Origin: Methylobacter marinus A45
Lineage (GTDB): Bacteria; Pseudomonadota; Gammaproteobacteria; Methylococcales; Methylomonadaceae
Length of the DNA stretch: 64,000 bases
Reading direction: 5' to 3'
NCBI RefSeq assembly: GCF_000383855.1
Contig: NZ_KB912877.1
Span: 2,871,579 to 2,935,578 of the forward strand
This document shows positions 44,417 through 64,000 of this stretch, in pieces. The translations under genes and the position numbers were made by a program. The notes under the pieces are model-generated. The model was not told where the DNA came from. It made no database searches and saw only the letters and a program-made list of their open reading frames with translations. Within the stretch, counting starts at the first letter, position 1. Each line of letters starts with the position of its first letter.

Positions 44417-45049
44417 TTATTGGCCATTGACAGGCGGCTGGTCGGAACCGCCGGTTGGATCGGGAAGACAGTTGCCAAGGCCGCTATGTCTTCGATTTAA
44501 TTCATAAACCCCGTATTCCCAAAATACTTTGCCTGGCTTTGATGGGCCAAGCCAGCCGCTTTTCTTAAGCTCCTTGGCGATGAAGTGGTTGATGAACCCG
44601 TGGCCAACAAGCAGAATGTTCTGATGTTCCTCTGCCAGTTCAACCAGTCTTTCCGCCGCTTGCCTTGCGCGCTTCCTGGCGCTTATCAGCGATTCGCCGT
44701 TCTTTGAAAAGCCAAATAGCCACAGAACCCTTAGAACAACAATCCAGACACCGACTGGCAGTGGAACAGAACCGCTACCAAAGTGGGGTATTGCAGTTTC
44801 GCAGAACAGCGGATCCTTCACATGCACTTCGGAAAATCCAAGTGCTTTTGCTGATTCGATTGAGCGCGCAAGGTGGCTGCACACGATCCACTTTTCTCCC
44901 TGGATGGCGGCAGCCGTTTTTCTTGGGGGAGCGCCCGCAATCCCTGATAAGTTGTATGCTTTTGCAATCGCGCCCAAGTCTTTCGTTTGGACTATCCCTT
45001 TCAGCTCAAACGCTGGTTTTCCATGACGTAGCAAGGTAATTCGCATCAT
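44417..45049 (-). CDS. Histidine phosphatase family protein (cassette)
   Basis: 210 residues from the ATG at 45049. RITLLRHGKPAF near the N-terminus is the RHG catalytic motif of the phosphoglycerate-mutase-like superfamily, and the second catalytic His lies in ILLVGHGFINHFIAKEL near residue 150. Function unknown; SixA-like proteins are one option. The last 25 residues (RRHSGLGNCLP...) run into sequence that resembles an insertion-sequence end, so the natural C-terminus may have been replaced. Confidence 0.82.
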   Translation of the reverse strand: MMRITLLRHGKPAFELKGIVQTKDLGAIAKAYNLSGIAGAPPRKTAAAIQGEKWIVCSHLARSIESAKALGFSEVHVKDPLFCETAIPHFGSGSVPLPVGVWIVVLRVLWLFGFSKNGESLISARKRARQAAERLVELAEEHQNILLVGHGFINHFIAKELKKSGWLGPSKPGKVFWEYGVYELNRRHSGLGNCLPDPTGGSDQPPVNGQ

Positions 45050-45059
45050 CTTTTCACTA

Positions 45060-45122
45060 TATACCGCCAAGCTAAAGGGTGCGCAGCGAAGCGGGGCGTC
45101 CCTTTGGGCGACTTGGTATGCG
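45060..45122 (-). repeat. attC site with altered core triplets
   Basis: Typical inner blocks (AAGCTAAAGGGTGCGCAGCGAAGCGGGGCGTCCCTTTGGGCGAC), but both cores are mutated: TACCGCC instead of TAACGCC at the left and GGTATGC instead of GTTATGC at the right. Confidence 0.85.
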
Positions 45123-45125
45123 CGT

Positions 45126-45683
45126 TCATAGGTGGCGCGCCTCTGACCAGATTCGTTCTTTGCCAACGCTGGTATACCAACGCTCAAATTGTGAGCGGTA
45201 TTGCTCAAATGGTTCGGATAGCTTTGATCGCGGGTCTTCACTAAGAGAATATGCCATTCCTTCGAAGAACCACTTGGGCTTGGTCCATGCCGCGAACATC
45301 CCAAGCTGCTCATTTTGAAGATGATGGATCATTTCATGACGCACATAAAATGGTTTCCATCCGCGGGAGTTGATGACGATGCCGAACGTGCCGATCGTCA
45401 TGCCCGCGCGATTTCCCAGATTGAAGGACTCGGAACAGGCATCAGAACTGCAGAAAATGACGCGTGGCTTATTTTCGATGGCGCCAACCGATGCGTCGAC
45501 AAACTGTAGAGCTTCATCGTACAGTTTGGCTGCTTCCCGGGTGCGAGACAGGTCGTCTATGCACAAAGTATCATCAAGACAGGAAAGACCGGCCAGTTCA
45601 GGTGCAACAATTCGAACAGGCTTGAAGAATGCCCAGGCAGCAACCGGGATGCTGAGCATGACTATGAGTATTATACGTTTCAA
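45126..45683 (-). CDS. Secreted gluzincin-like metallopeptidase (cassette)
   Basis: 185 residues with a signal peptide (MKRIILIVMLSIPVAAWA). The zinc motif HEMIHH near residue 119 and a downstream FFEGMAYSLSEDPR, which supplies the third ligand Glu as in gluzincins, suggest an active extracytoplasmic peptidase. Cysteines in the N-terminal half may form disulfides. No precise family recognised. Confidence 0.72.
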   Translation of the reverse strand: MKRIILIVMLSIPVAAWAFFKPVRIVAPELAGLSCLDDTLCIDDLSRTREAAKLYDEALQFVDASVGAIENKPRVIFCSSDACSESFNLGNRAGMTIGTFGIVINSRGWKPFYVRHEMIHHLQNEQLGMFAAWTKPKWFFEGMAYSLSEDPRSKLSEPFEQYRSQFERWYTSVGKERIWSEARHL

Positions 45684-45702
45684 CCTATGAGTTTCCTATG
45701 AC

Positions 45703-45797
45703 GCATAACGCCGCGAATCACCGTCAATCGTGGCACTTCGACGATATCAACCTTCTTGGCCGACGGTTTATACAGGCGCTTGAGCGCATCGTTAGGT
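45703..45797 (-). repeat. attC site (PhzF cassette)
   Basis: Left GCATAAC, right GTTAGGT, 95 bases, with inner blocks that differ from the common type (CACCGTCAATCGTGGCAC...). Confidence 0.8.
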
Positions 45798-46577
45798 TTA
45801 GAAGGCAATTTCGGCCTCCATGAACGTTACGGCACTTCCGGACAGTACCACTCTGTCGGATTTTACCTCGCATGCGAGGTTGCCGCCACGCTTAGAAACC
45901 TGTCTGGCGGACAGAGTATTTTTGCCAAGTTTTCCAGCCCAGTACGGCGCAAGTTTGCAATGGGCGGCACCGGTGACGGGATCTTCAGGAATGCCGATCT
46001 TAGGGGCAAAGAAACGACTGACAAAATCCACATCAGTGCCTGGCGCAGTAACGATAACGCCGCGCAAATCGAGCTGGCTGAGCAGGGCGTGGTTTGGCGT
46101 GATGGCGCGAACGGTTGCTTCGCTATCGAACACGGCCAAGTAGTCGTCGTCAGCTAATACCTCTATAGGGCGCACGCCAAGACCTTGAACCAAGGTTTCG
46201 GAAATCTCGCAGGCGGTTAACTTGTATGCAGGGAAATCCATTTGCAAGAGACTTCCACGCTTTTTCACGAATAGATCACCGCTACGCGTTTCAAATGTAA
46301 TGACTGATTCTGTGAAGCCAAGAGATTCAAAGATTACGTGAGCCGTTGCCAATGTGGCATGGCCACAAAGATCAACCTCCTTGACTGGAGTAAACCATCT
46401 CAGATTAAACCCCTTTGCGCTGGGTACGAAGAATGCGGTCTCTGACAAGTTGTTTTCTTCTGCGATGGCTTGAAGCAAGTCATCATCCAGCCAGTTCTCC
46501 AACGGGCACACTGCCGCCGGATTTCCCTCGAATGCTCGGGTTGCAAAAGCATCTACTTGGTATTGTTTGATTTTCAT
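45798..46577 (-). CDS. PhzF family isomerase (cassette)
   Basis: 259 residues of the PhzF/diaminopimelate-epimerase-like fold. The N-terminal signature QVDAFATRAFEGNPAAVCPL and the EENNLSETAFFVP block with the catalytic Glu are visible, followed by LCGHATLATAHVIF and DPVTGAAHCKLAPYW. Substrate unknown. Confidence 0.92.
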   Translation of the reverse strand: MKIKQYQVDAFATRAFEGNPAAVCPLENWLDDDLLQAIAEENNLSETAFFVPSAKGFNLRWFTPVKEVDLCGHATLATAHVIFESLGFTESVITFETRSGDLFVKKRGSLLQMDFPAYKLTACEISETLVQGLGVRPIEVLADDDYLAVFDSEATVRAITPNHALLSQLDLRGVIVTAPGTDVDFVSRFFAPKIGIPEDPVTGAAHCKLAPYWAGKLGKNTLSARQVSKRGGNLACEVKSDRVVLSGSAVTFMEAEIAF

Positions 46578-46599
46578 GTCTGATAACGTGTGATGAGAA

Positions 46600-46665
46600 A
46601 CCTAACGCCGCAATTCACCGGCGCGCAGCGCAGCGGAGCGTCCGAGTGAAATTGCCTTGTTATGT
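46600..46665 (-). repeat. attC site (ABM-domain cassette)
   Basis: Left ACCTAAC, right GTTATGT; inner arms CAATTCACCGG... and ...GAGTGAAATTG. Confidence 0.9.
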
Positions 46666-46953: not shown

Positions 46954-47015
46954 ACATAACGCCGAGCTAAGGGGCGGGCGCTATAGCGACCGTCCCTTTG
47001 AGCGCAGTGTTATGA
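46954..47015 (-). repeat. attC site
   Basis: Left ACATAAC, right GTTATGA, inner AGCTAAGGGGCGGGCG/CGTCCCTTTGAGCG. Common 60-base type. Confidence 0.92.
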
Positions 47016-47458: not shown

Positions 47459-47521
47459 TCATAACGTAAAAGTAAGGGGCTGCGCGCTTTTGCGCAGTCC
47501 CGCTTGACTGCAAGGTTATGC
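47459..47521 (-). repeat. attC site
   Basis: Left TCATAAC, right GTTATGC, with GTAAGGGGCTGCGCG/CGCAGTCCCGCTTGAC arms. The stop codon of the next cassette gene lies in the right core. Confidence 0.9.
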
Positions 47522-47857: not shown

Positions 47858-47964
47858 TCATAGCTCCTCTAGTGATCGAAGGATCGCGGCCAATGATCCG
47901 CTTTTGTTGCATAACGTAAAGCATAACCGGATACAAAAAGCGAAGCGTCGCGTAGCTTTTTGTG

Positions 47965-50010
47965 GTGTGACTGGCATGGTAGTCAGCTAGCTGGTGAAAG
48001 TCCAGCCTTTGCCCTGTGAGAAGGGAAGAAGTAGGCGAAAGCAAGGGTGTCCAAAGAAATGCCCGGTAGCTACCCAACAGGGAAGCACGGTTATCGGGAG
48101 CCAATGCGGAATCTGAAAGAAGCTCTAGCCGAATCGGTCACCTAAACGAGAGTGAACCTTCGTAAGGCGGCAGCAAGAGGATGAGGTGCCCGCGCCCACC
48201 GAAGTCCGATATTCTCACCGTAACTTGCTGGTGTATTGAAGGTAGGTGGACCGAGATAAAGTTGACTATCTTACCCAGTGAAGGGCCGTCGGCTTCGGGT
48301 CGGTGTAACTGCGACACCTTAAGCCCTAAGCGCAGCAGTAATGTTGACGTGATGAACCGAGGGTCTGCAGATGAAGCCGTAGTAATCGTAAAGTTCGATG
48401 CCGATGAGGTTATGGTGACATAGCTGAGGGAAAAACATCGAACCAGTGACAGGAAGTTGGAGGTGAAGGGTGGAACACGTAAGCGGGCCATGGCCGTTGA
48501 TTATAAACTGAGGGTCTGAGATCAGCCTGGCAGGAGCAATCGACTATTCGCGTCGTAAACAGTGAACGAATCGATTGCGCGAGATTGAAGAAAGGCCATT
48601 GCAAGAGAGAAAAAAAAAGTGAAATGAACGAACATGACCGATTGATTGAGGAACCAAGACTCTTTGACCACCTGTGCTCAACGTTGTATTTGAGTGCGGG
48701 ATTTGAACAGGTGAAGAAGAACAAAGGCAAACCCGGCATTGATGGGGTCACGATAGCCGACTTTGAAGCCCGTTTAGACGAAGAGCTAAGCCGCCTGCAA
48801 CAGGAGTTGCAGGATTGGACTTACCAACCCTCGCCGGTTCGCCGGGTCGAAATTCCCAAGCCGGGCGGCAAGGGAGTTCGGCTGCTCGGCATACCGACGG
48901 TACGGGATCGTGTGGTACAGACGACCTTGAAAATGTTGCTGGAACCGATCTTTGATCCGCATTTTTCGCCGCACAGTTACGGTTTCAGACCGGGCTGTAG
49001 TCAACACCAAGCGGTGCAAGCGGCTCAGGCAATCGTCAACAGTGGCAAGCCCTACGTGGTGGATATCGACTTATCGAAGTTCTTCGATCGAATCCACCAT
49101 GACCGCTTGATTTCCCGGATGGGACTGCGGATCGCTGACAAACGCATCTTGCGCCTGGTGGGCATGATGCTGCGCAGCGGCGTGATGATCAACGGCGTCG
49201 TCAACCCGAACAAGGAAGGCGCGATGCAAGGTGGCCCGTTAAGTCCCTTGCTGAGCAATATCGTTCTGGACGAACTGGACCAGGAATTGGAAAAACGCGG
49301 ACTGGCATTTTGCCGGTTTGCCGATGACTGTAACATCTTCGTTAGCTCGCAGAAAGCGGCCGAACGGGTGATGGACAAAGTCAGCCAATTCATCGAAAAC
49401 AAGCTGAAACTGAAGGTGAATCGGGAGAAAAGCCAAGTGGCTAAATCCGATGCGGTAAAGTTCTTGGGCTTTACCGTGGTCGATGGGACGATAGCGCTTG
49501 CGCATAAAGCCCTGCAAACGGCCATGAGTAAAGTCAAGGAACTCACGCCGCGTGGCACCCATCAGACGCTGAATCATACCCTGGCCGACCTTAATCAGTG
49601 GTACGTGGGCTGGGCCAACTACTACAGTTTGACCCAATACCCGTCTCAACTGAGGAAAATCGAAGCCCATATCCGGCGACGATTACGAGCGAGGCTGGTG
49701 AGTCAGCAGAAGCGGAAACAGCATCTGTATCGAAACCTGGTCAAACGGGGCGTACCGCGAAAGCAAGCCGCCCAGACGGTCTTTTCCAACAAGAAACGGT
49801 GGGCCCTTTCGGCAACCCGAGCGGTGACGAGAGCCTACCCGAACAGTTGGTTTATCAACCTGATGGGACAGGAAATACGATCCGACCGCCAATTAGCGCA
49901 TTGGTTTGAGGTTTCTCAATGGATTCGTCTTACGTGAGGAGCCGTGTACGGACCCGTACGCACGGTTCTGTGGGCAGACGGGAGCTGCGGCTCCCTCTGA
50001 CCCGATCAGC
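47965..50010 (+). mobile_element. Group IIC intron inserted in an attC (attC-type intron)
   Basis: A full-length group II intron. It begins about GTGTGACTGGCATGG (GUGYG-like 5' end), has a roughly 650-base structured 5' part, a maturase gene, then domain V at 49939-49968 (GAGCCGTGTACGG...CACGGTTC) and a domain VI hairpin GGGAGC...GCTCCC. It is oriented against the cassettes, meaning it entered the bottom strand of attC, as known for group IIC-attC introns. The 3' boundary is uncertain by about 15 bases. Confidence 0.88.
48624..49937 (+). CDS. ltrA: Group II intron reverse transcriptase/maturase
   Basis: 437 residues from the ATG at 48624; a TTG at 48585 would add 13 residues. RT domain with KPGIDGVTI, GFRPGCSQHQAV, the GGPLSPLLSNIVLDELD block and the catalytic FADD (usually YADD) near residue 238. 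GII maturase domain X follows (LNQWYVGWANYY, RKIEAHIRRRLRAR). No C-terminal endonuclease domain, as expected for group IIC proteins. It lies inside the intron and ends just before domain V. Confidence 0.94.
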   Translation: MNEHDRLIEEPRLFDHLCSTLYLSAGFEQVKKNKGKPGIDGVTIADFEARLDEELSRLQQELQDWTYQPSPVRRVEIPKPGGKGVRLLGIPTVRDRVVQTTLKMLLEPIFDPHFSPHSYGFRPGCSQHQAVQAAQAIVNSGKPYVVDIDLSKFFDRIHHDRLISRMGLRIADKRILRLVGMMLRSGVMINGVVNPNKEGAMQGGPLSPLLSNIVLDELDQELEKRGLAFCRFADDCNIFVSSQKAAERVMDKVSQFIENKLKLKVNREKSQVAKSDAVKFLGFTVVDGTIALAHKALQTAMSKVKELTPRGTHQTLNHTLADLNQWYVGWANYYSLTQYPSQLRKIEAHIRRRLRARLVSQQKRKQHLYRNLVKRGVPRKQAAQTVFSNKKRWALSATRAVTRAYPNSWFINLMGQEIRSDRQLAHWFEVSQWIRLT

Positions 50011-50036
50011 GGAAATTTTTCCGTAACATGCGCTTG

Positions 50037-50423
50037 TTAGGCTATATATAGCCCTAGCGACCCTACCAAACTAGCAATTAATAGAATGAAAGTTGGGACG
50101 ACTGTTAAAACAAATCCAGGTTGCCTTTTAGCCGGGTCAGTAATATACAAATGTCGATACAAAAAGCGCCCGATTAAATAAACTGCCCCAACGGCAGCGA
50201 CTACCGAATTTGGCCAATAATGGCTAGCGATGAACAGAGCGGGAAGAAAACCCACCAATTGCTCCATCGTGTTCATTTGCACACGAAAAGCGCGTTCAAA
50301 CTGCTCGTTCCCTGATGTTGAAGGGGGCCTAACATCGTGTTTAGCTCGTGCTCGGCCTACGAGGATACCAAATAGAAAAAACTGTAACACCGCCAAAACT
50401 GCTACTACGTGAACAAAATTCAT
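50037..50423 (-). CDS. MAPEG family membrane protein (cassette)
   Basis: 128 residues with four hydrophobic segments. The MAPEG signature is seen as RAKHDVRPPSTSGNEQFERAFRVQMNTMEQLVGFLPAL, followed by VYLIGRFLYRHLYI. Related proteins are membrane glutathione transferases. The stop codon lies in the attC core. Confidence 0.9.
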   Translation of the reverse strand: MNFVHVVAVLAVLQFFLFGILVGRARAKHDVRPPSTSGNEQFERAFRVQMNTMEQLVGFLPALFIASHYWPNSVVAAVGAVYLIGRFLYRHLYITDPAKRQPGFVLTVVPTFILLIASLVGSLGLYIA

Positions 50424-50450: not shown

Positions 50451-50513
50451 GCCAAACGTGAAGCTAAGGGGCGGGCGCGATAACGACCGTCTCGCTTGAG
50501 CGCAATGTTAGAC
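50451..50513 (-). repeat. attC site
   Basis: Left GCCAAAC (slightly off consensus), right GTTAGAC, inner AGCTAAGGGGCGGGCG/CGTCTCGCTTGAGCG. Confidence 0.88.
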
Positions 50514-50523: not shown

Positions 50524-51009
50524 TCAGCCGCGGCGCGCCGCTTCGATCGCGGCGATGTCAATCTTTCGCATCGTCATCATCGCATCGAACGCACGCTTGG
50601 CGGCAGCGGGATCTGGATCAGTGATCGCTTCCGTCAGGGCCAGAGGTGTTATCTGCCAGGACAATCCCCATTTGTCCTTGCACCAGCCGCACGCACTCTC
50701 TTGGCCGCCGTTGCCGACGATCGCGCTCCAGTAGCGATCCGTTTCGGCCTGGTCAGCGGTTGCGACCTGAAACGAGAACGCTTCGTTGTGCTTAAATGCA
50801 GGTCCACCGTTGAGCCCGAGGCACGGAATGCCCATTATAGTGAACCAGACCGTCAACACATCCCCTGTCTTCCCGGACGGAAAGTCCCCCGGTGCGCGGT
50901 GCACTGCGCCGACAAACGAGTCAGGAAAAGTAGCGGCGTAAAACCGTGCCGCGTCTTCGGCGCTACCATCGTACCAAAGGCAAACCGTGTTCTTTGCTGG
51001 TGTTGTCAT
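50524..51009 (-). CDS. VOC family protein, PhnB-like (cassette)
   Basis: 161 residues of the PhnB/3-demethylubiquinone-methyltransferase-like glyoxalase fold. Pattern: CLWYDGSAEDAARFYAATFPDS, then VWFTIMGIPCLGLNGGP and DRYWSAIVGNGGQESACGWCKDKWGLSWQI. Function unknown; G+C is higher than most cassettes. Confidence 0.88.
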   Translation of the reverse strand: MTTPAKNTVCLWYDGSAEDAARFYAATFPDSFVGAVHRAPGDFPSGKTGDVLTVWFTIMGIPCLGLNGGPAFKHNEAFSFQVATADQAETDRYWSAIVGNGGQESACGWCKDKWGLSWQITPLALTEAITDPDPAAAKRAFDAMMTMRKIDIAAIEAARRG

Positions 51010-51075: not shown

Positions 51076-51137
51076 GTTTAACGCTCAGCTAAGGGGCCGC
51101 GCGGTCAGCGCGGTCCTGCTTGAGCGCAGTGTTAGAT
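51076..51137 (-). repeat. attC site overlapping a gene end
   Basis: Left GTTTAAC, right GTTAGAT, inner CTCAGCTAAGGGGCCGC/GGTCCTGCTTGAGCG. The gene at 51089 reads through most of it. Confidence 0.9.
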
Positions 51138-51532
51138 GATTTTTCCCATAATTCACAGGATCGAAATCCATACAGATACAATCCAATGTAGCCTGGTATA
51201 AACAAAATAACATATGCGAATCCGGCCCAAATAATATTCTCTGTATTCACTTCTATTGGTTCTTCAATATAACCATGAACCGATAAATATATATCCCACA
51301 GAACAATGAATGGCAGCCATAGCTTCCATAGTGCTTTAGTGAATATTTTGTGCCTATAGATAAACCCAAATAAACCAGCAAGAGTTATCGACATAAAGAG
51401 GATATCAAGAACATCACTCGCATTTGGCTCCTCTAGGTCGAAATACGAATAAAATGAGAGCAGCGCAACAAAGCTTAACGCTATGATTACAAAGTACAAC
51501 CTCCAGAGGATCTTGATAATTGCTTCCTTCAT
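51089..51532 (-). CDS. Four-helix membrane protein whose C-terminus is encoded by attC (cassette)
   Basis: 147 residues, starting MKEAIIKILWRLYFVIIALS, with hydrophobic segments near residues 10-28, 45-60, 68-85 and 105-122. The last residues, SSNTALKQDRADRAAP, are translated from the attC. No family recognised. Confidence 0.7.
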   Translation of the reverse strand: MKEAIIKILWRLYFVIIALSFVALLSFYSYFDLEEPNASDVLDILFMSITLAGLFGFIYRHKIFTKALWKLWLPFIVLWDIYLSVHGYIEEPIEVNTENIIWAGFAYVILFIPGYIGLYLYGFRSCELWEKSSNTALKQDRADRAAP

Positions 51533-51602
51533 TTAACGACCGAGCTCATTTGCGCGAATAAAACGCAACGGAATGAGCGTCAAATGAAGCGACTTGTTAT
51601 AC
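51531..51602 (-). repeat. attC site
   Basis: Left ATTTAAC, right GTTATAC, inner CGAGCTCATTTGCGCG... and ...AATGAGCGTCAAATGAAGCGAC. Confidence 0.85.
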
Positions 51603-52003: not shown

Positions 52004-52066
52004 GCATAACGCCAAGCTAAGGAGCGTGTAGCGAAGTGAATCGTTGCCTTGAGCGCTGTGTTATGC
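52004..52066 (-). repeat. attC site
   Basis: Left GCATAAC, right GTTATGC, inner AAGCTAAGGAGCGTG/CGTTGCCTTGAGCGC. Confidence 0.9.
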
Positions 52067-52504
52067 ATATACACTGCCAACTGGTATGCCGCCTTCAATC
52101 GACAATATTTCTATTTTTGAACAGTTAAAACGTAGGTCACATGTCGTATGCGCATCGAAGCTAACCTTGTAGTTAATGTTTTCTAATTGATCACCGCGAA
52201 TATCCGAAATCGTAAGTCCGCTTAACGAGTTCTGTTGTCCAAACCCGTAGCCCAAATAGAACTCGACCACATCGTAGAATGCGAAAGTAACAATATTGTG
52301 CTTTATAGTTTTGTATTGATTACCGACAACCTCGTTGGTAATTTGAAAACAATGAAGCTTTACTGTTACCGTTGGCCCATTTTGCCCTTTGCATGCATTT
52401 CTATCAAGGACAACTGAAATAATTTCTGCATCATGGAACGACGGCCAATCCTCAAAAATGCCCAATATTTCTTCTGAACCAGCAATTTTCAAATACTTAT
52501 TCAT
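52061..52504 (-). CDS. Imm50-like immunity family protein (cassette)
   Basis: 147 residues from MNKYLKIAGSEEI; the ATG at 52525 lies in the attC. The N-terminal motif FEDWPSFHDAEIISVVLDR followed by TVTVKLHCFQ is the pattern I associate with Imm50-type immunity proteins of polymorphic-toxin systems. No toxin gene is adjacent. Annotation is by motif only. Confidence 0.65.
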   Translation of the reverse strand: MNKYLKIAGSEEILGIFEDWPSFHDAEIISVVLDRNACKGQNGPTVTVKLHCFQITNEVVGNQYKTIKHNIVTFAFYDVVEFYLGYGFGQQNSLSGLTISDIRGDQLENINYKVSFDAHTTCDLRFNCSKIEILSIEGGIPVGSVYA

Positions 52505-52521
52505 TCGCGTGGATTCGATAT

Positions 52522-52561
52522 GCATAACGACAAACTGTGGGGCGCGAGCGTATTGTTAAAA
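52522..52561 (-). repeat. Short attC site
   Basis: Left GCATAAC, right GTTAAAA, only 40 bases, with the usual inner stem reduced. Probably a degenerate attC. Confidence 0.65.
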
Positions 52562-52565: not shown

Positions 52566-53105
52566 CTAAACGATTTTATATGCAACTTCATTAAGGATTC
52601 GACCAGACATACTTGTTACTTCGCCAGTTCTAAATATTCTGCCGTTTAATTTTTCTGCAATTTTCCTGCTGGGTATATTATCTCTGTCGCAAGGATATAC
52701 CATAAAATTGAAAATCAGATTTTTTCTGGCCCAATCAGCCAGAAGCTTTATTGCCTCTTGACCGAAACGATTACCGTGAGCATGTTTTTTTAGCCATATA
52801 CCCAGGATTGGTTCGTCTGGGGAAGGCTTTCCATGAAGCCCACAAACGCCCAAGAATTCATCTGAGTTATTATCAAGAATTGCAAAAGTTAAATCAGTGT
52901 TATCTTCCATATTTTTATTACTTGTTCGAATAAACTCGTAAATCTGATTAATATGTGTGGGTGTCGATGGAACCATAAGCTGCGTTATTTCATCAGTAAA
53001 CTCTTTAAAAATTATGTCCGCATATTGATCAGAGATTGGTATTAGTCGTACCCGTTCACCATTTATCGTAACTGAGCTAAATCGAATGGGAGTACGGGTC
53101 TGCAC
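52566..53105 (-). CDS. GNAT family N-acetyltransferase (cassette)
   Basis: 179 residues of the RimJ-like GNAT type: GERVRLIPISDQYADIIFKEF at the N-terminus, FAILDNNSDEFLGVCGLHG, then the acetyl-CoA loop HAHGNRFGQEAIKLLADWA and DRDNIPSRKIAEKLNG. Substrate unknown. Confidence 0.88.
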   Translation of the reverse strand: MQTRTPIRFSSVTINGERVRLIPISDQYADIIFKEFTDEITQLMVPSTPTHINQIYEFIRTSNKNMEDNTDLTFAILDNNSDEFLGVCGLHGKPSPDEPILGIWLKKHAHGNRFGQEAIKLLADWARKNLIFNFMVYPCDRDNIPSRKIAEKLNGRIFRTGEVTSMSGRILNEVAYKIV

Positions 53106-53121: not shown

Positions 53122-53184
53122 TTCTAACGCAGAGCTAAAGGGCGCGCAGCGAAGCGGAGCGTCCCTTTGAGCGGTGTGTTATAA
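53122..53184 (-). repeat. attC site
   Basis: Left TTCTAAC, right GTTATAA, inner AGAGCTAAAGGGCGCGCAGCG/GGAGCGTCCCTTTGAGCG. Confidence 0.9.
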
Positions 53185-53502: not shown

Positions 53503-53566
53503 TTATAACGTTTGAGCTCAGGCCGCGGCCCTTTAGGGCCGTCGCGCCTGCAGCGTATGGTTAGAG
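53503..53566 (-). repeat. attC site
   Basis: Left TTATAAC, right GTTAGAG, inner GAGCTCAGGCCGCGGCCC/GGGCCGTCGCGCCTGCAGCG. Confidence 0.85.
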
Positions 53567-54391: not shown

Positions 54392-54463
54392 ATTAAACGC
54401 CTAGCCCACCCGGCCAAAAAACCGCGCAGCGGTTTTTTGGCCGGGTGGAGCGCCGTGTTATAT
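54392..54463 (-). repeat. attC site
   Basis: Left ATTAAAC, right GTTATAT; long perfect inner arms CCACCCGGCCAAAAAACCGC/GCGGTTTTTTGGCCGGGTGG. Confidence 0.88.
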
Positions 54464-54808: not shown

Positions 54809-55069
54809 CTGGCATTATTGCTGCTTTAGCGTTTCAATGAACTCCGGTGCCAGGGGCAATAATTCGTCAATGCGACTGTTCGGCCAGACCGGCAGCTTTG
54901 CCAGCGTCTCTTTCAGCCAGGCAGCCGGATCGAGGCCATTGAGCCGGGCGGTGCCGAGCAAGGTCTGAATGGCGGCCGCACGGCGGCCGGCACGCTCGGA
55001 GCCAGCGAACAACCAATTCTTCTTACCCAGGGCGATAGGCCGGATGCTGTTCTCCACCGGGTTATGATG
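54788..55069 (-). mobile_element. IS66-family fragment (3' end of tnpC)
   Basis: The terminal GTAAGCATCCAGTCCCACC at 54788 is an IS66-type end. The open frame 54815 to about 55070 encodes NPVENSIRPIALGKKNWLFAGSERAGRRAA and ends QQ, the conserved C-terminus of IS66 TnpC. The rest of the element is missing; the IS3-family copy begins at 55070. Confidence 0.88.
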
Positions 55070-55094
55070 TGTCAACACTTTTCCGGACACACGA

Positions 55095-55930
55095 TTAAAC
55101 CGCTTTATGCCGCAATTCGTAATCCACGGGCGACCTATAGCCATTGGCCGAATGGAGTCGCTCGCGGTTGTAAAAGACTTCAATATACTCAAATATCGCC
55201 TGCCTAGCCTCAGCCCGGGTTTGATAGGTCTGATGGTGCACCAGCTCGGTTTTCAAGGTATGGAAGAAGCTTTCCGAAACCGCATTATCCCAGCAGTTGC
55301 CCTTACGGCTCATGCTTTGCCTTACGCCATGCCGGGCTAATAGCGCCCGATGGCTTTCCGAGGCATATTGACTGCCGCGATCGGTATGCCATAACAAGCC
55401 TTTGTCGGGCTTGCGCTGCCAAATAGCCATCAAGAGCGCATCATTCACCAGCTTGGTCCGCATGTGCTCGGCCATCGACCAACCGACCACTTGTCGGGAA
55501 AACAGATCAATCACCACCGCCAGATACAGCCAGCCTTCCTGAGTATGAACGTAGGTGATGTCGCCGACATAAGCCTGATTAGGTTGATTCACGGTAAATT
55601 GACGGTCCAGATGGTTCGGTGCAATGGGTAGATCATGCCGGGAATCCGTAGTCGCCTTGAATTCGCGTTTGGATTTACAGGCCAGATTGGCTTCCCGCAT
55701 CAAACGGCCTATGCGCCGCCGGCTCATCGTCCGCTGATGGCCGAGCAATATCTACTTGAGTCGCCGGGTACCATAGGTCGCCCGGCTTTTGTCAAACTCG
55801 GTGCGGATGAGGCTCGTCAAAGCGGCATCGTCTTTCTCGGCCTCTGTTTGCCCGCGCTGTAACCAGGCATAATAAGCACTACGGGACACCTTCATGAACC
55901 GGCACATCGCATCCACTGAAAAGTCATTCG
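55095..55930 (-). pseudogene. IS3-family transposase OrfB with internal stop
   Basis: Integrase-core transposase: RATYGTRRLK, then [53 protein letters not shown] (DDE Asp), DRGSQYAS and [15 protein letters not shown]. At 55752-55754 a TAG replaces the expected CAG (LK*ILLGHQ), truncating the protein. The downstream open frame 55095-55748 begins after it. Confidence 0.85.
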
Positions 55931-56307
55931 TATGTTGCTTGATCCAGGCGTACTTCTCGGCAACTGCTCCTGCGTTGCTCTACCTCCTGCATCCATGCAG
56001 TCGACCGTTGTTCCCTGGCAAAGTACGCCGCCGCCTTTTTTAATAAATCACGCTCCTCAGTGAGTCGAGCGACCTCTTTCTTCAGCCGCTTTAATTCATC
56101 GTAAAGGTGCTCGTCAGTGCGTACCGCTTTGTCGCTGGTTTTGGGCCGGCTATATTTGCTGATCCAGGTATGCAACGTATTGACATTGATGCCGAGATCC
56201 TTGGCGGTCTGAGCAATCGACTGGTCCGACTCGTTCGCCAGTTTAACGGTTGACGCTCTGAATTCCGCACTATAGATTTTTTGTTTTTCTTGATTCATTT
56301 GGGGCAC
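55924..56307 (-). CDS. IS3-family OrfA (helix-turn-helix protein)
   Basis: 127 residues with an HTH (YSAEFRASTVKLANESDQSIAQTAKDLGINVNTLHTWIS) and a C-terminal leucine zipper-like helix (LKRLKKEVARLTEERDLLKKAAAYFA). An A6G run at 56035-56041 is a possible slippage site for the OrfAB fusion, though the orfB frame is displaced. Confidence 0.85.
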   Translation of the reverse strand: MPQMNQEKQKIYSAEFRASTVKLANESDQSIAQTAKDLGINVNTLHTWISKYSRPKTSDKAVRTDEHLYDELKRLKKEVARLTEERDLLKKAAAYFAREQRSTAWMQEVEQRRSSCREVRLDQATYE

Positions 56308-56358
56308 ACGTTCTCTGTTCGCTTTATTTTAAATTGTGTGTCCGGTTTAGTGTAGCCA

Positions 56359-56377
56359 TATCACGCCAGGGTTAGAG
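56359..56377 (-). repeat. attC remnant beside the IS3 element
   Basis: TATCACGCCAGGGTTAGAGC retains the right end (GTTAGAG) of an attC; the rest was removed by the IS3/IS66 insertion. Confidence 0.6.
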
Positions 56378-56744: not shown

Positions 56745-56827
56745 CTCTAACGATAAGAGTAACTTGACGGTAAAAGCGTAGCGACGATAGGCGCGAAGCT
56801 TTTGCCGGTCAAGTTGACCCGTTAGTT
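56745..56827 (-). repeat. attC site
   Basis: Left CTCTAAC, right GTTAGTT; inner AACTTGACGGTAAAAGCG/CTTTTGCCGGTCAAGTTGA, a long palindromic type. Confidence 0.88.
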
Positions 56828-57530
56828 ATGTAGATTGGCATAAGTTCCTCACGCTTACTGTTTGTTTTTTGATGTCTGCGACTGGGTCAAAAACATGTGC
56901 TGCTAACTGCTGCTCGATGATGTTACGATTCTGTTGGAATAAGGTACGAGCAAACTCGGGAACAAAAGCATTGTTCATATAGCGTTCAATGTACGTTATT
57001 TTGTCTACATTGCTCTGGGTTGGAATGCTTTGCCCAAAGTCATCGGCAATTTTTTCGACCTTAGACATAAGGTCTACGGAAAACTCTAGGCACAACGTAA
57101 GAACATCTTGTTTAGGAGCGTCAAGACAAGTGCACTTCCCTTTATTGTCAATCCTTTCTATATCATTCGCAATATAATATTTACCATCTGTATAAGCATT
57201 AATGATCTGCATTCCATCATGAGTAATTGCATTTCGACATTCTTTAAAGAACTCTGAATGTCTGACATCTGAAAAGTATGACCATGCAATTTTTTGACTA
57301 GTCGCAGTTTCTAAAGAGTCCTTGAGTGACTGAAATGTGTTGACGAAGGCATTGAAGGTGAAGTTGATATCTTCATCACTTGTGTTCACCGGACTAATTC
57401 CAGCCAAGAAATTTTGATTTACCAGACTGCATATTTTAATAATTTTGAGCAAAAAATATTCATATTCCTGCAATTTGTTTTTTATAAAACTACCCACAAC
57501 CATTTTGTGGTGTATTTGTTGCTCATTCAT
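56826..57530 (-). CDS. HEPN-like helical protein (cassette)
   Basis: 234 residues, almost all helical by pattern. FFKECRNAITHDG near residue 96 contains the Rx4H arrangement (Arg, four residues, His) seen in HEPN domains, some of which are RNases or RNA binders in defence systems. The rest is unrecognised. AT-rich. The assignment to HEPN is by this motif only. Confidence 0.55.
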   Translation of the reverse strand: MNEQQIHHKMVVGSFIKNKLQEYEYFLLKIIKICSLVNQNFLAGISPVNTSDEDINFTFNAFVNTFQSLKDSLETATSQKIAWSYFSDVRHSEFFKECRNAITHDGMQIINAYTDGKYYIANDIERIDNKGKCTCLDAPKQDVLTLCLEFSVDLMSKVEKIADDFGQSIPTQSNVDKITYIERYMNNAFVPEFARTLFQQNRNIIEQQLAAHVFDPVADIKKQTVSVRNLCQST

Positions 57531-57545: not shown

Positions 57546-57632
57546 ACATAACGCCGCGCGTAACCGGCAGGCGAAAGCGGCAGAGCGAAGCGGCGCCGCT
57601 TTTGTTTGTCCGAGTTAACGCGCTTGTTGGAC
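57546..57632 (-). repeat. attC site
   Basis: Left ACATAAC, right GTTGGAC; inner GCGCGTAACCGGCAGGCGAAAGCGGC... and GCCGCTTTTGTTTGTCCGAGTTAACGCG. Confidence 0.8.
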
Positions 57633-57741: not shown

Positions 57742-58646
57742 ATGACAGCATCATCTGAAGCCAATTTCAAGCACAATTATCAAAGCCATCTTAAACACCT
57801 TAAGCTCAAAGGGCTCCAGCCCAAGACGATCGAGGCCTACGCCCGTGCCATTCGGCGTATCGGCCAGTATTTCGATTATCAAATTACTGAGCTGTCCGAA
57901 CCGCAATTGACCGACTATTTATCCGATTTGCTGGAATCGCATTTCTGGAGTTCCGCCAAGCTGGACCTCTACGGTCTTAAATTCTTCTACGCCCATGTGC
58001 TGCATAAGCCCTGGGTCAATATCGGTCTGATCAAACCGCCACGGGCCCAACGCTTGCCGGATATCGTCACGGTAGAGGAAGCCCAGCGTTTGTTCCTGGC
58101 AACCCAAACCCTCAGTTACCGGTTTTTCTATTTCACCGTCTACAGCCTTGGGCTGCGTCTGGGCGAAGGTTTGCGCTTGGAGGTGGGCGATATCGACGCC
58201 GAACGCCAGCGCGTGCACATCCGCGATGCCAAAGGCAATAAAGACCGGTTGGTGCCGTTGCCGGAGGTAACGTTGTCCCTGTTACGCCGCTTCTGGCAGG
58301 TCCATCGTAACCCGGTGTTGTTGTTTCCTAATCGTCAAGGTGGGCTCAAGGGCGCATGCCGGGCAACGACACCGCTGGATCGCGGCGGCGCGCAAGCAAC
58401 GCTGCGCAAGGTGGCGCAAGACTGTGGTCTAAAAAAAAGATTACGCCACACAGTTTACGTCACAGCTATGCCACGCATCTGATCGAAGCCGGTGTCGATC
58501 TGCTGGAAGTGCAGAAGATCCTCGGTCACCATAGTATCCTGACCACCGCCCGCTATACCCACCTGACCTCCGGTACGAACCAGAACGCCAACCAGGCGAT
58601 CAATGCTCTGATGAATGGTTTTGCCATTGACTGGAGGACGGTCAAA
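57742..58646 (+). pseudogene. Tyrosine recombinase of IS91-associated type, frameshifted
   Basis: Two frames join to about 302 residues. The first (to 58482) has the SAM-like N-terminal domain and the first catalytic Arg (LGLRLGEGLRLEVGD). The second (from about 58430) has [16 protein letters not shown] (His-x-x-Arg), [14 protein letters not shown] (His and nucleophile Tyr). One extra A in the A8 run at 58431-58438 would restore [13 protein letters not shown]. Either a deletion or a site where slippage could produce a full protein. Not the integron integrase: no IntI-specific extra helix is seen. Confidence 0.8.
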
Positions 58647-58693
58647 TGATCCTGCTCTCATCGGTCATCGCAACCTTCGTAGCGAAAGGGTAA
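58646..58693 (+). pseudogene. Start of an IS91-type transposase, truncated
   Basis: ATG overlapping the recombinase stop region begins [15 protein letters not shown] and then stops. It matches the start of IS91-type transposases (LSSVIATF) that follow this recombinase in intact elements, so the transposase body is deleted. Confidence 0.5.
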
Positions 58694-58702
58694 GCCGTCG
58701 GA

Positions 58703-58829
58703 CTCGAAGTGGGTGTTATGCGCTTCTTACTTCCTGATCATTATGGGAAAAGCGCTTTCCGACAAATCAAACCGGTAGCACAACATGTGCCTACCGAAAG
58801 GTCTTAGAGAAAAGTCGGTTTCTTTTCAG
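58703..58829. other. Junction of the IS91-type remnant with array DNA
   Basis: Contains GTTATGC at 58715-58721, like the right end of an attC, and a hairpin CGGTAGCACA...TGTGCCTACCG at about 58771-58795 that could be the element's terminal hairpin. Whether an attC was split here is uncertain. Confidence 0.4.
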
Positions 58830-59634: not shown

Positions 59635-60225
59635 TTAAATTTTTGGGTTCCTGGATTGCGCAGTCTTGGCGGCTTTCTCCAGCAGGTCTTTGACATATTT
59701 GTTGCGCTCGGCGGATATGGGCGCAGTGCGGCTTGAGTTATATGCCGCTTTTTGCCAGTCCTTTGCTTTAATTGCGGCATTAAACATGGGCCATTTGTTT
59801 TTTAAGTTGGGCATACCCAAGTTAAATATCAAATCGAACAAAGCTAATTTCACCTCGGAGGGAAAGGCATCAAAACCGCTGTAAATAAGCCGTAGTTCTT
59901 TTTCAAATGAATCGATGTGTTTATTGGTCAGTTTATCAACTTCGGCATTGGGTAATGTCAATTTAGCGTGCTTTTTATAAAAAGAAGCCAGCCGATTAGC
60001 TGGTTGCTTTTTTACAGTGTCATAATCTGCTTTTATATCTGTCGCACTGGCGGGCAAACTCTTCGGCGTTATAAAAGCCAGCTTTTGCGCATCCGCCACG
60101 CTATTAATTAAATGGCCCACACCTACAGTGACATAGCCTTTAGAATCTAAATACATGTAGTTAACTTTGCCTTCATATTTTTCGAGTTTGGTGCGAAGGA
60201 TTTGTTTTTCTGTGGCTGTAAGCAT
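59635..60225 (-). CDS. GH24 (T4-lysozyme-like) muramidase
   Basis: 196 residues without a signal peptide. The catalytic triad of T4 lysozyme (Glu11, Asp20, Thr26) is matched exactly in spacing by Glu18, Asp27 and Thr33 in YEGKVNYMYLDSKGYVTVGVGHL. Helical C-terminal part with LALFDLIFNLGMPNLKNKWP. It could be a phage endolysin remnant, but no holin or other phage gene is near, and the lipoprotein downstream suggests an antibacterial effector exported by another route. Confidence 0.85.
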   Translation of the reverse strand: MLTATEKQILRTKLEKYEGKVNYMYLDSKGYVTVGVGHLINSVADAQKLAFITPKSLPASATDIKADYDTVKKQPANRLASFYKKHAKLTLPNAEVDKLTNKHIDSFEKELRLIYSGFDAFPSEVKLALFDLIFNLGMPNLKNKWPMFNAAIKAKDWQKAAYNSSRTAPISAERNKYVKDLLEKAAKTAQSRNPKI

Positions 60226-60400: not shown

Positions 60401-60473
60401 GCATAACGCCAAGCATCACGCGACCGAAAACCGCGCTGCGGTTTTTGGGTCGCCGTGGATGCACTTGTTAAGT
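60401..60473 (-). repeat. attC site
   Basis: Left GCATAAC, right GTTAAGT, inner GCGACCGAAAACCGCGC/GCGGTTTTTGGGTCGCCG. Confidence 0.9.
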
Positions 60474-60484: not shown

Positions 60485-61174
60485 TTAGGCCGGAAACTCA
60501 CTCTCGTGCCCTGTTTCAAGTACTGCGTGAATATTGTGGCTTCCATTTCGGAGGCAGTGCTTTCCGGTTGAGAGGTAATGATCAAATTCCCCTTCCGTTT
60601 GCTCTCTGAACAGTGCCATTTCGAAATCATCTTCCTGCTCGTTGATGATGATAAAGCGATCCACTAGCGACCGAATATTGTTATGGGAGTGGGAGCAGAC
60701 GAAGTTATAGATGGAGCGATACTCCTCAACCATTCCCGCCTTTTCGAACTTCGAAAAGTGGGACAGCGGTGGGTACCCATCTTGCGAGAGCTGAGCAAGC
60801 CTTTCCTCGTGATGCTGCACTTGCGCCGTCAGTTCGGCATCACCACCAATAGCAGCAAGGTATGGATTGTCTCCACCTTCCGCGTGTTTGAGCACTCGCA
60901 GCCATTCTTTGGAGTAGCTTGCTTCCATATGATTTCCATAACCCCGATCTTCTGCCAAGTTCTTGAAATCCACATAAGCCTCTAAGAGAGAGCGGAAAAT
61001 AACTGGGATCGCTACTGTTTTCTCGTTGGCAGCCAGATGAACCAGTGAATCTGAGTACTCGATAAGCGCGCCATACAGCGCTACCAAGTTTCGATGCCAA
61101 GGGTGGGTTTTATCGAACTTGAGATGTTCTGCGTACTGAAGCGCTTTCGCTATTTCTTGGCGATATTCATCCAT
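60485..61174 (-). CDS. DUF5677-like protein (cassette)
   Basis: 229 residues from the ATG at 61174 (MDEYRQEIAKALQY); an upstream GTG/ATG at 61198 lies in attC sequence. Helical; the segments HPWHRNLVALYGALIEYSDS, FRSLLEAYVDFKNL and YNFVCSHSHNNIRSL suggest the DUF5677 family, whose role is unknown. Confidence 0.68.
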   Translation of the reverse strand: MDEYRQEIAKALQYAEHLKFDKTHPWHRNLVALYGALIEYSDSLVHLAANEKTVAIPVIFRSLLEAYVDFKNLAEDRGYGNHMEASYSKEWLRVLKHAEGGDNPYLAAIGGDAELTAQVQHHEERLAQLSQDGYPPLSHFSKFEKAGMVEEYRSIYNFVCSHSHNNIRSLVDRFIIINEQEDDFEMALFREQTEGEFDHYLSTGKHCLRNGSHNIHAVLETGHESEFPA

Positions 61175-61183
61175 GCTTTTTTC

Positions 61184-61261
61184 ACCTAACGCCCACATAA
61201 ACGGCGCGACGTTAGGAGCGTCCGGCGACCGGAGGGGGCGAATTTGATGTGATTGTTAAGT
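61184..61261 (-). repeat. attC site
   Basis: Left ACCTAAC, right GTTAAGT, inner ACATAAACGGCGCGACGTTAGGAGCG/CCGGCGACCGG. Confidence 0.78.
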
Positions 61262-61610: not shown

Positions 61611-61619
61611 CTTTTTGAC

Positions 61620-61807: not shown

Positions 61808-62785
61808 TTAATCAGCTTCCGCCTTCCGCTTGCCGCTCGATAGCCAGAGGGAAAACAGGATCAGCGTCAGTGAACAGATCAAGGCCAAAGTCAGCTTCTC
61901 CCCGCTGAAAGCGATGCCGATGAAGGCGCCGACAAGCGGCACCAAGTAATTGCTCATTGATGCGAAACTCGGCCCAGCCCGGTTGATCAGAACCACGAAA
62001 AGGGTATAGACCAGCCCGCCGCAGAAAATACCGAGCAACCCCAAAGCCATCAACGCATGCAGAGAAGGATGAAAGGCCGTCATCGCCCACGGGTTAGCCA
62101 GCCAGAGCGCCAGTGGCACAGTGGTGATGGCGGCTCCCAAAAGGATTCCCTGGGCGGCGTGGGTCGGCCCCAAGCGAGACAGGCGCATTCGAATCAGCAG
62201 CATGGCGGCCGCAAAAGAAAAGGCAGAGGCCAATACGGCCAAGGCAGGTAGGAGGATGGAGGAACTGTCGGCAACTGCTTCTGCCGATCTGGCAGCAAAA
62301 AGCTCATGACCAACAAGAACAACAATTCCGAAGAAACCAAGGGTCACCCCGACGACTTTTTTCGCCGAGATATCGCTGCCTTTGATAAAGAGTGCCTCCA
62401 GCAAAGTGGCGAATAGGGGGACGGTGCCGATCAAAATGGCGGTAATGCTGCTAGCTAGTCGCTCCTGAGCCCAGGCAACGAGCAGGAAGGGGATGGTCGC
62501 TTCTAACAGGCCGATCAGGATGAAATCGGGAAAGAAGTGCCAGAAAGGGCGTTGTGGCTTGGCTTGCCCTGATTTTTCAAACCCAACGGCGAGAATGATA
62601 GCCAGTGTCGCGGTTCCGATGGTGACACGTCCCGCCGCAATCGAAGAGGCAGAAAACCCTTCCAGTGCGATCTTGTTGAGGAGGAATTGAGAACCCCAGA
62701 TCAGCCCCACGCCGAGAAGGAGAAGATAGTTGACGAGGACAAACGAAGAATCTTTGGAGTGCGCTAGGGAGTTTTTACATGTCAT
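61808..62785 (-). CDS. EamA/DMT family transporter (cassette)
   Basis: 325 residues with about ten hydrophobic segments in two EamA repeats. N-terminal signature GVGLIWGSQFLLNKIAL near residue 26 and a second repeat near residue 180. Drug/metabolite transporter family; substrate unknown. Largest cassette gene in the window, and more G+C-rich than most of them. Confidence 0.92.
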   Translation of the reverse strand: MTCKNSLAHSKDSSFVLVNYLLLLGVGLIWGSQFLLNKIALEGFSASSIAAGRVTIGTATLAIILAVGFEKSGQAKPQRPFWHFFPDFILIGLLEATIPFLLVAWAQERLASSITAILIGTVPLFATLLEALFIKGSDISAKKVVGVTLGFFGIVVLVGHELFAARSAEAVADSSSILLPALAVLASAFSFAAAMLLIRMRLSRLGPTHAAQGILLGAAITTVPLALWLANPWAMTAFHPSLHALMALGLLGIFCGGLVYTLFVVLINRAGPSFASMSNYLVPLVGAFIGIAFSGEKLTLALICSLTLILFSLWLSSGKRKAEAD

Positions 62786-62836: not shown

Positions 62837-62923
62837 GCCTAACGCCGAGTATAACTTGCCCCAAAAAGTGGAGCGACGATAGGAGAGTAGCTTTTTGGGG
62901 TCAAGTTGATACGCTCGTTAGGC
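62837..62923 (-). repeat. attC site
   Basis: Left GCCTAAC, right GTTAGGC; long inner palindrome ATAACTTGCCCCAAAAAG/CTTTTTGGGGTCAAGTTGAT. Confidence 0.93.
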
Positions 62924-63214
62924 ATATTCTTTTCGCCAAACCAGGATAAATGCTAGTGCTGTTGTCAGCGTAAGACCAACTGCTACTCCATTGAACACGT
63001 GAACTTGATCCAAAGTTAACATGATTTCAGTATCCGTAATACTGATATAACCGGTTTCAGGAGGAGCGAAATACCCACCGACCCCGCCAAAAAGCCCTCC
63101 GACCGTAACGATAGTTACACGGCACCAAAGTTTCTTAAAAATCCACAGTAGTAGTGCAGCACATATTATGGGGATCAAAAACAAGGCAATTATAAAAATA
63201 ATGAATTCGATCAT
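62918..63214 (-). CDS. Small membrane protein (cassette)
   Basis: 98 residues: a first hydrophobic segment at 4-28, a glycine-rich second (VTVGGLFGGVGGYF) at 36-48, and a third near 75-92, ending WRKEYA. Not recognised. The stop codon lies in the attC core. Confidence 0.65.
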   Translation of the reverse strand: MIEFIIFIIALFLIPIICAALLLWIFKKLWCRVTIVTVGGLFGGVGGYFAPPETGYISITDTEIMLTLDQVHVFNGVAVGLTLTTALAFILVWRKEYA

Positions 63215-63220
63215 TCCTAT

Positions 63221-63310
63221 GCCTAACGCAAAGCTAACCGGGCGCGGAGCACCGAAGTTTGAAGGAAAACCGCATCGCTTTCCGCGCTCCGGTTGAGCGT
63301 TGGGTTAGCA
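63221..63310 (-). repeat. attC site
   Basis: Left GCCTAAC, right GTTAGCA, inner AAGCTAACCGGGCGCGGAGC/TTCCGCGCTCCGGTTGAGCG. Confidence 0.9.
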
Positions 63311-63685
63311 CTTGGCTTCGATAATATACTGAATATCTTTGTCATTTAACTTTAACGGCGCCATGAAAGCATTAATAAATGTACGGCGACTGTTTTCATC
63401 CGCAGAAGACCACCAATTGGATGCTGAAATGCGCTTTAACAGTAGCTTAGATTCCAATCTTTCCATATCTGCGGTACGCCACCGTTCCCACTCCGCAACA
63501 GCTTTTTTGTTACCTGCGGACCTTTCTATTTCAATAAGCGTTTCACATACTCTATCCGCAATGCTCGCTACAAGCGGATTTCCTTGGCACTCGGGAAGGT
63601 TTGGCTCAGGGTGAAACTTTGCTGCCATTAATACTTTATGTAGAGCCAACAACTCGCTCTTATCTTTGATTGGAATTTCAAACAT
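63305..63685 (-). CDS. Hypothetical protein (cassette)
   Basis: 126 residues, starting MFEIPIKDKSELLALHKVLM, soluble and mostly helical (CETLIEIERSAGNKKAVAEWERW). Not recognised. The stop codon lies in the attC. Confidence 0.65.
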   Translation of the reverse strand: MFEIPIKDKSELLALHKVLMAAKFHPEPNLPECQGNPLVASIADRVCETLIEIERSAGNKKAVAEWERWRTADMERLESKLLLKRISASNWWSSADENSRRTFINAFMAPLKLNDKDIQYIIEAKC

Positions 63686-63696
63686 CGCTTATTGAG

Positions 63697-63809
63697 TGCT
63701 AACGCCATGCTCAGCTGCCATTTGACGCGGGATTTTTTTGCGGGATAATAGCGAAGCGACCCGCAAAAAAATACCGCGGCAAATGGTCAGCTGGAGCTAA
63801 TTGTTATGC
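63697..63809 (-). repeat. attC site
   Basis: Left TGCTAAC, right GTTATGC, 113 bases, inner CAGCTGCCATTTGACGCGGGATTTTTTTGCGGG/CCCGCAAAAAAATACCGCGGCAAATGGTCAGCTG. Confidence 0.9.
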
Positions 63810-63813
63810 GCTT

Positions 63814-64000
63814 TTAGCCAAACTTTTGCGTATCTGACATACGCCAATTATTTGGGAAGCGCACCCATGAGTGCTTTGATTCATTCCATGCCGATGCAAC
63901 TGGCTCAGGAAATTTGGGATTTTCAAAGCAACCTACTGCTACACCTACACTACTCGGCATAAACTCCGCGCTCCAATACACTGTTGAACCGCAAGATGGA
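63814..64000 (-). CDS. GFA family protein, start beyond window edge (cassette)
   Basis: The last 61 codons of a minus-strand gene: PSCGSTVYWSAEFMPSSVGV, CFENPKFPEPVASAWNESKH and SWVRFPNNWRM. This is the C-terminal half of the GFA/CENP-V family (zinc-binding, CxxCG type). The N-terminal part lies to the right of 64000. Confidence 0.8.
   Translation of the reverse strand, partial: PSCGSTVYWSAEFMPSSVGVAVGCFENPKFPEPVASAWNESKHSWVRFPNNWRMSDTQKFG

Follow-up and report, generated by a model that had tools for sequence, protein, structure and literature searches.

Sedentary chromosomal integrons carry an integrase gene (intI), an attI side and more than 20 cassettes read in one direction, and attC recombination sites of the Methylococcales have already been modelled in print (PMC8352920; statements about this and the other papers cited here refer to the parts of them that were available). 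Several kinds of mobile element are described in relation to attC. For group IIC-attC introns, insertion is described either within the stem-loop of the attC bottom strand or immediately behind it, for most of them at TTGT/T in the R'' box (PMC7923331), and IS1111-attC elements are insertion sequences that target attC (PMC9229058), IS1111 encoding a DEDD transposase (PMC11187229). An IS91-like transposase occurs in ISCR1 and IS91, ISCR1 being linked to class 1 integrons (PMC8876359), and the IS91-like ISShvi3 of Shewanella has been noted beside an attC (PMC9229058). Here, we analyzed a 64,000-nucleotide window of DNA (G000:C1:2871579-2935578, from a genome of 4.99 Mb in two contigs) together with the stretch to its right (L011) and the 16.6 kb before it (L012). 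The cassette array in the window very probably belongs to a complete chromosomal integron and serves also as a landing pad for attC-recognizing elements, the best-supported case being a group of IS91-family elements with an additional tyrosine recombinase gene.

At a probability of roughly 0.55, our reading is that a widespread IS91-family group, which we call IS91-attC, uses integrons as its home: its transposase would read the folded attC bottom strand as its own attC-like origin, insert exactly at R'' and leave a usable R'' box, so that moving cassettes could take the element with them. The left end of the window element coincides exactly with the R'' box of the attC at 57546-57632. A 95% identical copy in the same genome (L106) runs on into the transposase, present as two broken open reading frames (ORFs) with the IS91 zinc and Y2 domains, and PF04986 (Y2_Tnp) and PF14319 (Zn_Tnp_IS91) are found in the relatives L159, L161, L106 and L179. 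Related DNA occurs in 35 of 201 genomes of the family, with near-identical pairs within G043, G060 and G055 (aligned lengths 2432, 2473 and 2461 bases).

Element ends were mapped by comparison of copies. Scanning for both ends covered 26 loci, 18 of which have complete-end copies (none in L117, L166, L169, L170, L171, L174, L175 or L176). The resulting 19 copies, 428 to 2586 bases long, come from methanotrophs, Vibrionaceae plasmids and one E. coli plasmid, and L142 and L165 among them are internally deleted. Their left end reads G|TTG(G/A)ACGAAG, the G before TTG(G/A)AC being present in 19/19; their right end is an attC-like hairpin followed by G|TT, a right-side GTT having been a prerequisite of the search pattern, with a purine after GTT in 18/19. 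In the right-end hairpin of the 19 sequences, 96.6% of cells are paired, compared with 83.9% after shuffling (reached in 0/500 shuffles), and 32 cells are changed on both sides, compared with 7.7 (0/500). The copy at L142:1501-1927 is a 428-base derivative resembling a miniature inverted-repeat transposable element, with both ends and no room for genes.

Landing sites were assessed at 41 left ends, comprising 38 of the 52 family matches, those extending as far as the left end (14 others were set aside), and three remnants in the genome of the window (L106 plus strand, and L107 twice). When a left end is called abutting if it lies within 3 bases of a match to our attC covariance model at E<0.2, 15 of the 41 are abutting, and in each case the match lies on the element's strand and terminates at R'' (L106 minus, L107 twice, L115 in the window, L118, L120, L125, L128, L132, L133, L138, L144, L145, L149 and L157); none of the 15 is on the opposite strand and none is at R'. 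Chance would give 0.32 of 41 (29 matches, 3725 GTT on both strands; P about 1e-21), a figure that assumes all GTT to be equally likely and takes the matches as given. Outside this threshold, L150 has an abutting match at E 0.85, and L146 has a match at E 0.28 that ends 12 bases short. A passive link to attC, in which arrays are just dispensable DNA where insertions survive, would account for the IS3 element and IS66 remnant that likewise lie in the array; it would, however, scatter insertions over the cassettes, whereas in the 15 model-supported cases the base position and the strand are always the same, and a distant relative has the same placement in a class 1 integron. We consider a passive link very improbable.

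That distant relative is on the E. coli plasmid LT985243 (L179), where an element combining an IS91 transposase (41% identical) with a recombinase lies between aadA1 and qacEdelta1. Its left end is at an attC R'', a model match of 5e-7 ending at the junction, and from its place and sequence we take the invaded attC to be that of aadA1. LT985243 is the only record in the plasmid set with most of this element at high identity; the only other near match in that set is partial (Shewanella ANA-3, 11% covered), and the E. coli set has none. Of the methanotroph element, the E. coli set gave no match and the plasmids only short pieces. In Salinivibrio, the left flank has a weak attC match ending at the junction (E 1.1), and the left flanks in three Photobacterium plasmids are not recognized by the attC model. 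Extending the transposase search to the whole class gave matches in 9/369 genomes at E up to 1e-70. At the five foreign left ends from this search, L186 has an abutting match at E 0.0089 and L187 a weak one at E 1.2; L188, L189 and L190 have no attC model match, L189 looking attC-like by eye.

Several points weigh against the reading we prefer. Because 26/41 left ends abut no model match at E<0.2, attC is a preference and not a rule, with some of the 26 looking by eye like half an attC (these are excluded from the count) and most still having GTT at the junction. A clear attC match is present at only 1/5 of the foreign class-wide left ends. The last columns of the model fall on the element's own GTTGGAC, which somewhat favors abutting matches, and a crude fold score was uninformative (its threshold was reached by 17/41 left ends and by 236/1000 random GTT sites) and is not used as support. 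The window copy is itself truncated, retaining only the first codons of the transposase, and further pair types in the right-end hairpin show no excess over shuffled sequences (12 vs 12.0; 328/500). Finally, the G at the junction can be assigned to element or target alike, and the tyrosine recombinase of the element, rather than its HUH transposase, could do the insertion.

This last point leads to a different account, possible although we rate it as the less probable one, in which the element travels as a gene cassette, with either IntI or the element's own tyrosine recombinase as the enzyme; the right end would then be an attC joining core sites (GTTRRRY) on the bottom strand, and the HUH transposase would be a passenger or act in a later step. 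TTGGAC at the left end and the R'' box GTCCAAC at the right end are complementary, as they would be in a circular cassette; the junctions are G^TT, and the targets are mostly GTTRRR. One L163 copy shows the empty core GGG^TTAGAA, the complement of the R' box of its attC; a second (TTG^TTTCGT) departs from the core consensus. The attC model, trained on the array only, finds the right end of one element, in two identical copies (L160, E 0.0077; L159, E 0.018), but misses the right ends of the other copies tried. Also unlike cassette movement, insertion at attC falls on R'' and not on the R' crossover, and the element points in the direction opposite to the cassettes. Most methanotroph copies have a recombinase gene divided over two frames. 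Near-identical copies are present in G055, two of them, 99.8% identical and both at attC R'', in a genome where no intI match at E up to 1e-40 was found (63/97 candidates scored), so that absence is likely. Because these copies lie at R'' without an intI match, insertion of the element is probably independent of intI. Among 80 intI loci, element right ends were found at five by pattern (L041, L068, L069, L074 and L088) and at L015 by BLAST.

Since the right end resembles an attC at R'' and the G055 copies lie at R'' without an intI match, we favor the HUH transposase as the agent of insertion. In the integron itself, IntI would insert circular cassettes at attI (about L011:1751) and shuffle them via the attC bottom strand. 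In the IS91-attC mechanism that we propose, the transposase would act on a single strand, recognizing a hairpin, a few bases and then GTTR, an outline that the right end of the element (hairpin, six bases, GTTR) shares with the folded attC bottom strand at R''. In the copies located at attC, the left end (GTTGGAC or GTTGAAC) stands in for the R'' box on the bottom strand. Because GTTGGAC also fits GTTRRRY, the invaded attC retains an R'' box and may stay recombinogenic.

The split recombinase gene changes frame at a run of eight A. This A8 run is present in 21/25 aligned stretches (three of the 21 being second views of copies also entered under another locus), with A7 in L117, L121 and L128 and the region lost in L165, and identity to the window at matched bases around the run is 70-99%. 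The HxxR segment is in the other frame in L159, L161 and L106, and distant relatives have an unbroken recombinase gene of 296 aa. These patterns suggest that programmed frameshifting at A8 is likely in the methanotroph recombinase. We also considered this plus-strand recombinase as a second IntI; its match to TIGR02249 is only partial, with two pieces scoring 86.1 and 56.8 bits (cut-off 265), and it is part of the IS91-type element.

The closest described elements differ in several respects. IS1111-attC targets attC as well, whereas here IS91-type HUH and zinc domains, and not a DEDD transposase, are combined with a tyrosine recombinase gene. ISShvi3, described as IS91-like, is one case, for which an R'' junction, an attC-like right end and recurrence are not described in the available parts of PMC9229058. 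ISCR1 and IS91 have the same type of transposase, and the available parts of PMC8876359 do not describe attC R'' targeting for them. In the literature, mostly open-access, we found no description of IS91-family insertion at attC R'' besides the ISShvi3 statement (PMC9229058, available in part). If our reading is true, IS91-attC would join IIC-attC introns and IS1111-attC as one more type of mobile element that targets attC, occurring in methanotrophs and in a class 1 integron and having relatives with the same end structure among the Vibrionaceae. It would link single-strand (HUH) transposition to integron recombination sites, give a testable reason for IS91-type elements turning up in cassette arrays, and provide a natural probe of folded attC bottom strands in vivo.

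The array itself had been reported by an earlier, sequence-only reading of the window, which described single minus-strand genes with more than 20 attC sites between them and expected an intI gene on the right, beyond 64000. The finding of a large cassette array is confirmed. An intact integron integrase gene lies ∼1.9 kb beyond that position (G000:C1:2937479-2938417, plus strand, within L011:1874-2845), matching TIGR02249 with 495.9 bits (cut-off 265) over model positions 1-313 of 315 with no stop; 0/14 control genomes pass the cut-off. The gene is divergent from the cassettes, which point away from it as in the normal geometry. A GTTAGGC core on the minus strand (L011:1751-1757) lies after the intI gene and before the first cassette, where an attI would be expected, and we regard it as a putative attI. 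Beside it, an ORF at L011:1258-1728 (minus strand) encodes a 156-aa protein with no Pfam match. The 27 ORFs that we scanned as cassette genes all lie on the minus strand.

Relatives of this intI include Methylobacter and Methylomicrobium among the best, others being Nitrosomonas or Thiobacillus metagenome-assembled genomes, and the genome has two AMO-family genes (ammonia monooxygenase/particulate methane monooxygenase, AMO/pMMO); on this basis the host is probably a methanotroph. Integrons are frequent in its family, with intI in 77/151 genomes at E up to 1e-60, 75 of them above the cut-off. Given this frequency and the published attC sites of Methylococcales, the array is ordinary in kind, and the attC-targeting IS91-type element is the part worth following. 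The array shares its attC type through part of its length, and nothing essential sets it apart from sedentary chromosomal integrons as presented in the available parts of PMC8352920, only several inserted elements. It adds one more large integron outside Vibrio, with small attC clusters scattered in the same genome. At least three mobile elements interrupt it and the distal attC is degenerate, as would be expected of a dead relic with an inactive integrase and frozen cassettes; against this, intI is intact and full length and most attC folds are sound, and a relic seems unlikely to us.

A strict palindromic-core search for attC gave mostly noise, and we therefore picked sites by eye before testing them. 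This gave 24 sites, 22 in the window between 45059 and 63809 and two in L011, in keeping with the number claimed earlier. The side on which small bulges lie tells the attC bottom strand from the top. Plus-strand folds of the 24 sites have 39 small bulges on the 3' arm and 6 on the 5' arm, the extrahelical bases that the sequence-only reading had proposed to look for; because the bulges sit mainly on the 3' arm, the plus strand is the attC bottom strand. RNAalifold on a MAFFT alignment of the sites found no common structure, and a first model (R1) was without pairs. A structure given by hand on 17/24 sites was used for covariation and for the 13-pair covariance model. In these 17 sites, 34 cells are changed on both sides, compared with 16.1 in shuffles (0/500 reach), the covariation score is 0.461 compared with 0.188 (0/500 reach), and 86.4% of cells are paired, compared with 37-46% for slid structures. 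Pairs with change on both sides (7 vs 6.3 shuffled; 223/500) and further pair types (20 vs 17.2; 55/500) do not stand out.

The sequence-only reading had named two outcomes that would count against an array, a lack of intI on the right and rejection of most sites by covariance models, and neither occurred. Of the 22 window sites, the covariance model recovers 20 at E<0.2 and another at 0.25, although 16 of these formed its training set. The seven curated sites outside training comprise three at E<1e-4, three at E 0.11-0.25 and the missed 40-base site at 52522. Similarity between sites is partial: the sequence-only reading held that many share sequence blocks, and AGCTAA(A/G)GG occurs without mismatch at 6 positions of the array, which bears this out for a subset and not for most sites. 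Searching the window, L011 and L012 gave 25 matches at E up to 1, all in the array, including one (E 0.43) that reads a true site on the incorrect strand and one (E 0.92) to the left part of a split attC; no match at E up to 1 falls elsewhere in the window, in L012 or in the remainder of L011. The sites at 61620-61742 and L011:252-373 (122-123 bases) have a similar long loop, as if one were derived from the other. Outside the array, the window has two neighboring tRNA genes (27452-27524 and 27570-27642) whose model scores are the same. Table 1 lists the features.

Table 1. Features of the window and of the adjoining part of L011; numbers without prefix are window positions, and E values refer to the attC covariance model
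Feature	Position	Strand	Basis or remark
Cassette array	44417..64000, on to about L011:1757	-	cassettes read leftwards
attC, degenerate, distal end; core ACC/GGT	45059..45123	+	bottom strand +; E 8.6e-8, outside training set
attC, poorly folding	45703..45797	+	by eye and model, E 0.11, outside training set
PhzC-PhzF cassette gene	45798..46577	-	Pfam
attC	46600..46665	+	by eye and model
attC	46954..47015	+	by eye and model
attC	47459..47521	+	by eye and model
Left part of intron-split attC	47909..47964	+	model
Group II intron, 2042 bases, GTGTGAC..CCGAT	47965..50006	+	Rfam RF02001, RF00029
Intron-encoded reverse transcriptase/maturase, 450 aa ORF	48585..49937	+	PF00078, PF08388
Right part of intron-split attC, R'' CTTGTTAGG	50007..50041	+	intron end comparison, fold
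MAPEG cassette gene	50037..50423	-	Pfam
attC	50451..50513	+	by eye and model
3-dmu-9_3-mt cassette gene	50524..51009	-	Pfam
attC	51076..51137	+	by eye and model
attC	51531..51602	+	by eye and model
attC	52004..52066	+	by eye and model
Imm50 immunity protein cassette gene	52061..52525	-	Pfam
Short attC candidate, 40 bases	52522..52561	+	by eye only
GNAT acetyltransferase cassette gene	52566..53105	-	Pfam
attC	53122..53184	+	by eye and model
attC	53503..53566	+	by eye and model
CdiI_3 immunity protein cassette gene	53576..53971	-	Pfam
attC	53978..54040	+	by eye and model
attC	54392..54464	+	by eye and model
IS66 remnant and IS3-type element within array	54815..56350 (limits approximate)	-	PF13817, PF03050, PF00665, PF01527
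Right half of attC beside IS3-type element	about 56360..56377	+	by eye
attC	56745..56831	+	by eye and model
attC, R'' box GTTGGAC = left end of IS91-type element	57546..57632	+	by eye and model
Truncated IS91-type element: left end, recombinase gene, first transposase codons	57627..58680 (right limit about)	+	95% identical copy at L106
Tyrosine recombinase, two overlapping frames, frame change at A8 (58431-58438)	57742..58649	+	PF00589, PF13495
Right half of attC beside truncated IS91-type element	58680..58722	+	85% identical stretches at L109, L114
Phage lysozyme / pesticin C-terminal domain cassette gene	59635..60225	-	Pfam
attC	60401..60473	+	by eye and model
DUF5677 cassette gene	60485..61198	-	Pfam
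attC	61184..61261	+	by eye and model, E 0.15, outside training set
attC, long loop	61620..61742	+	by eye and model, E 8.9e-5, outside training set
EamA transporter cassette gene	61808..62785	-	Pfam
attC	62837..62923	+	by eye and model
attC	63221..63310	+	by eye and model
attC, long loop	63697..63809	+	by eye and model, E 0.25, outside training set
attC	L011:252-373		by eye
attC	L011:1014-1094		by eye

A whole-genome search with the model gave at least 41 attC matches at E up to 1, a lower bound, with 150/1310 candidates scored and the array sites 45059 and 53503 missed. Small clusters away from intI lie at 875-877, 1846-1848, 2745-2750, 3871-3875, 4327-4330 and 4940 kb, together with singles, and clusters or single matches without an integrase are also seen at about 1727 and 4813 kb (G000:C1). 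Those at 1847 and 2747 kb contain copies or remnants of the IS91-type element. In one small cluster of this kind, the ORF at L107:2056-2856 (minus strand) has a transpeptidase domain (PF00905) and reads like a class D beta-lactamase, a resemblance seen by eye and not a family match. Such clusters, the group II intron, the IS66/IS3 remnants and the IS91-type element are absent from the account given by the sequence-only reading.

The group II intron, whose ends were set by a 77% identical copy in the Methylomonas sp. AM2-LC plasmid CP157006, splits one attC in the orientation opposite to the cassettes. Its junctions are TTTTTGTG|GTGTGAC and CCGAT|CAGCGG, with the inner hairpin of the attC preceding the insertion. 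Like the group IIC-attC introns, such as S.ma.I2 (PMC7923331, available in part), it lies within an attC, opposite to the cassettes and after a hairpin. Both a group II ribozyme and a reverse transcriptase were found; in contrast to the majority of IIC-attC introns in that source, it follows the inner hairpin and is not inserted at TTGT/T in R'', and we refer to it simply as a group II intron. A scan of viral contigs with the intron protein found no relative.

Pfam names among the 27 cassette ORFs further include ABM, YCII and histidine phosphatase; many of the 27 have no Pfam match above the cut-off, and PADLOC on 10 cassette proteins gave no match. Alongside the Imm50 and CdiI_3 cassettes, Pfam names no toxin partner, and the lysozyme/pesticin-domain cassette is in the same array. 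The plus-strand genes named in the array are the reverse transcriptase of the intron and the recombinase of the IS91-type element.

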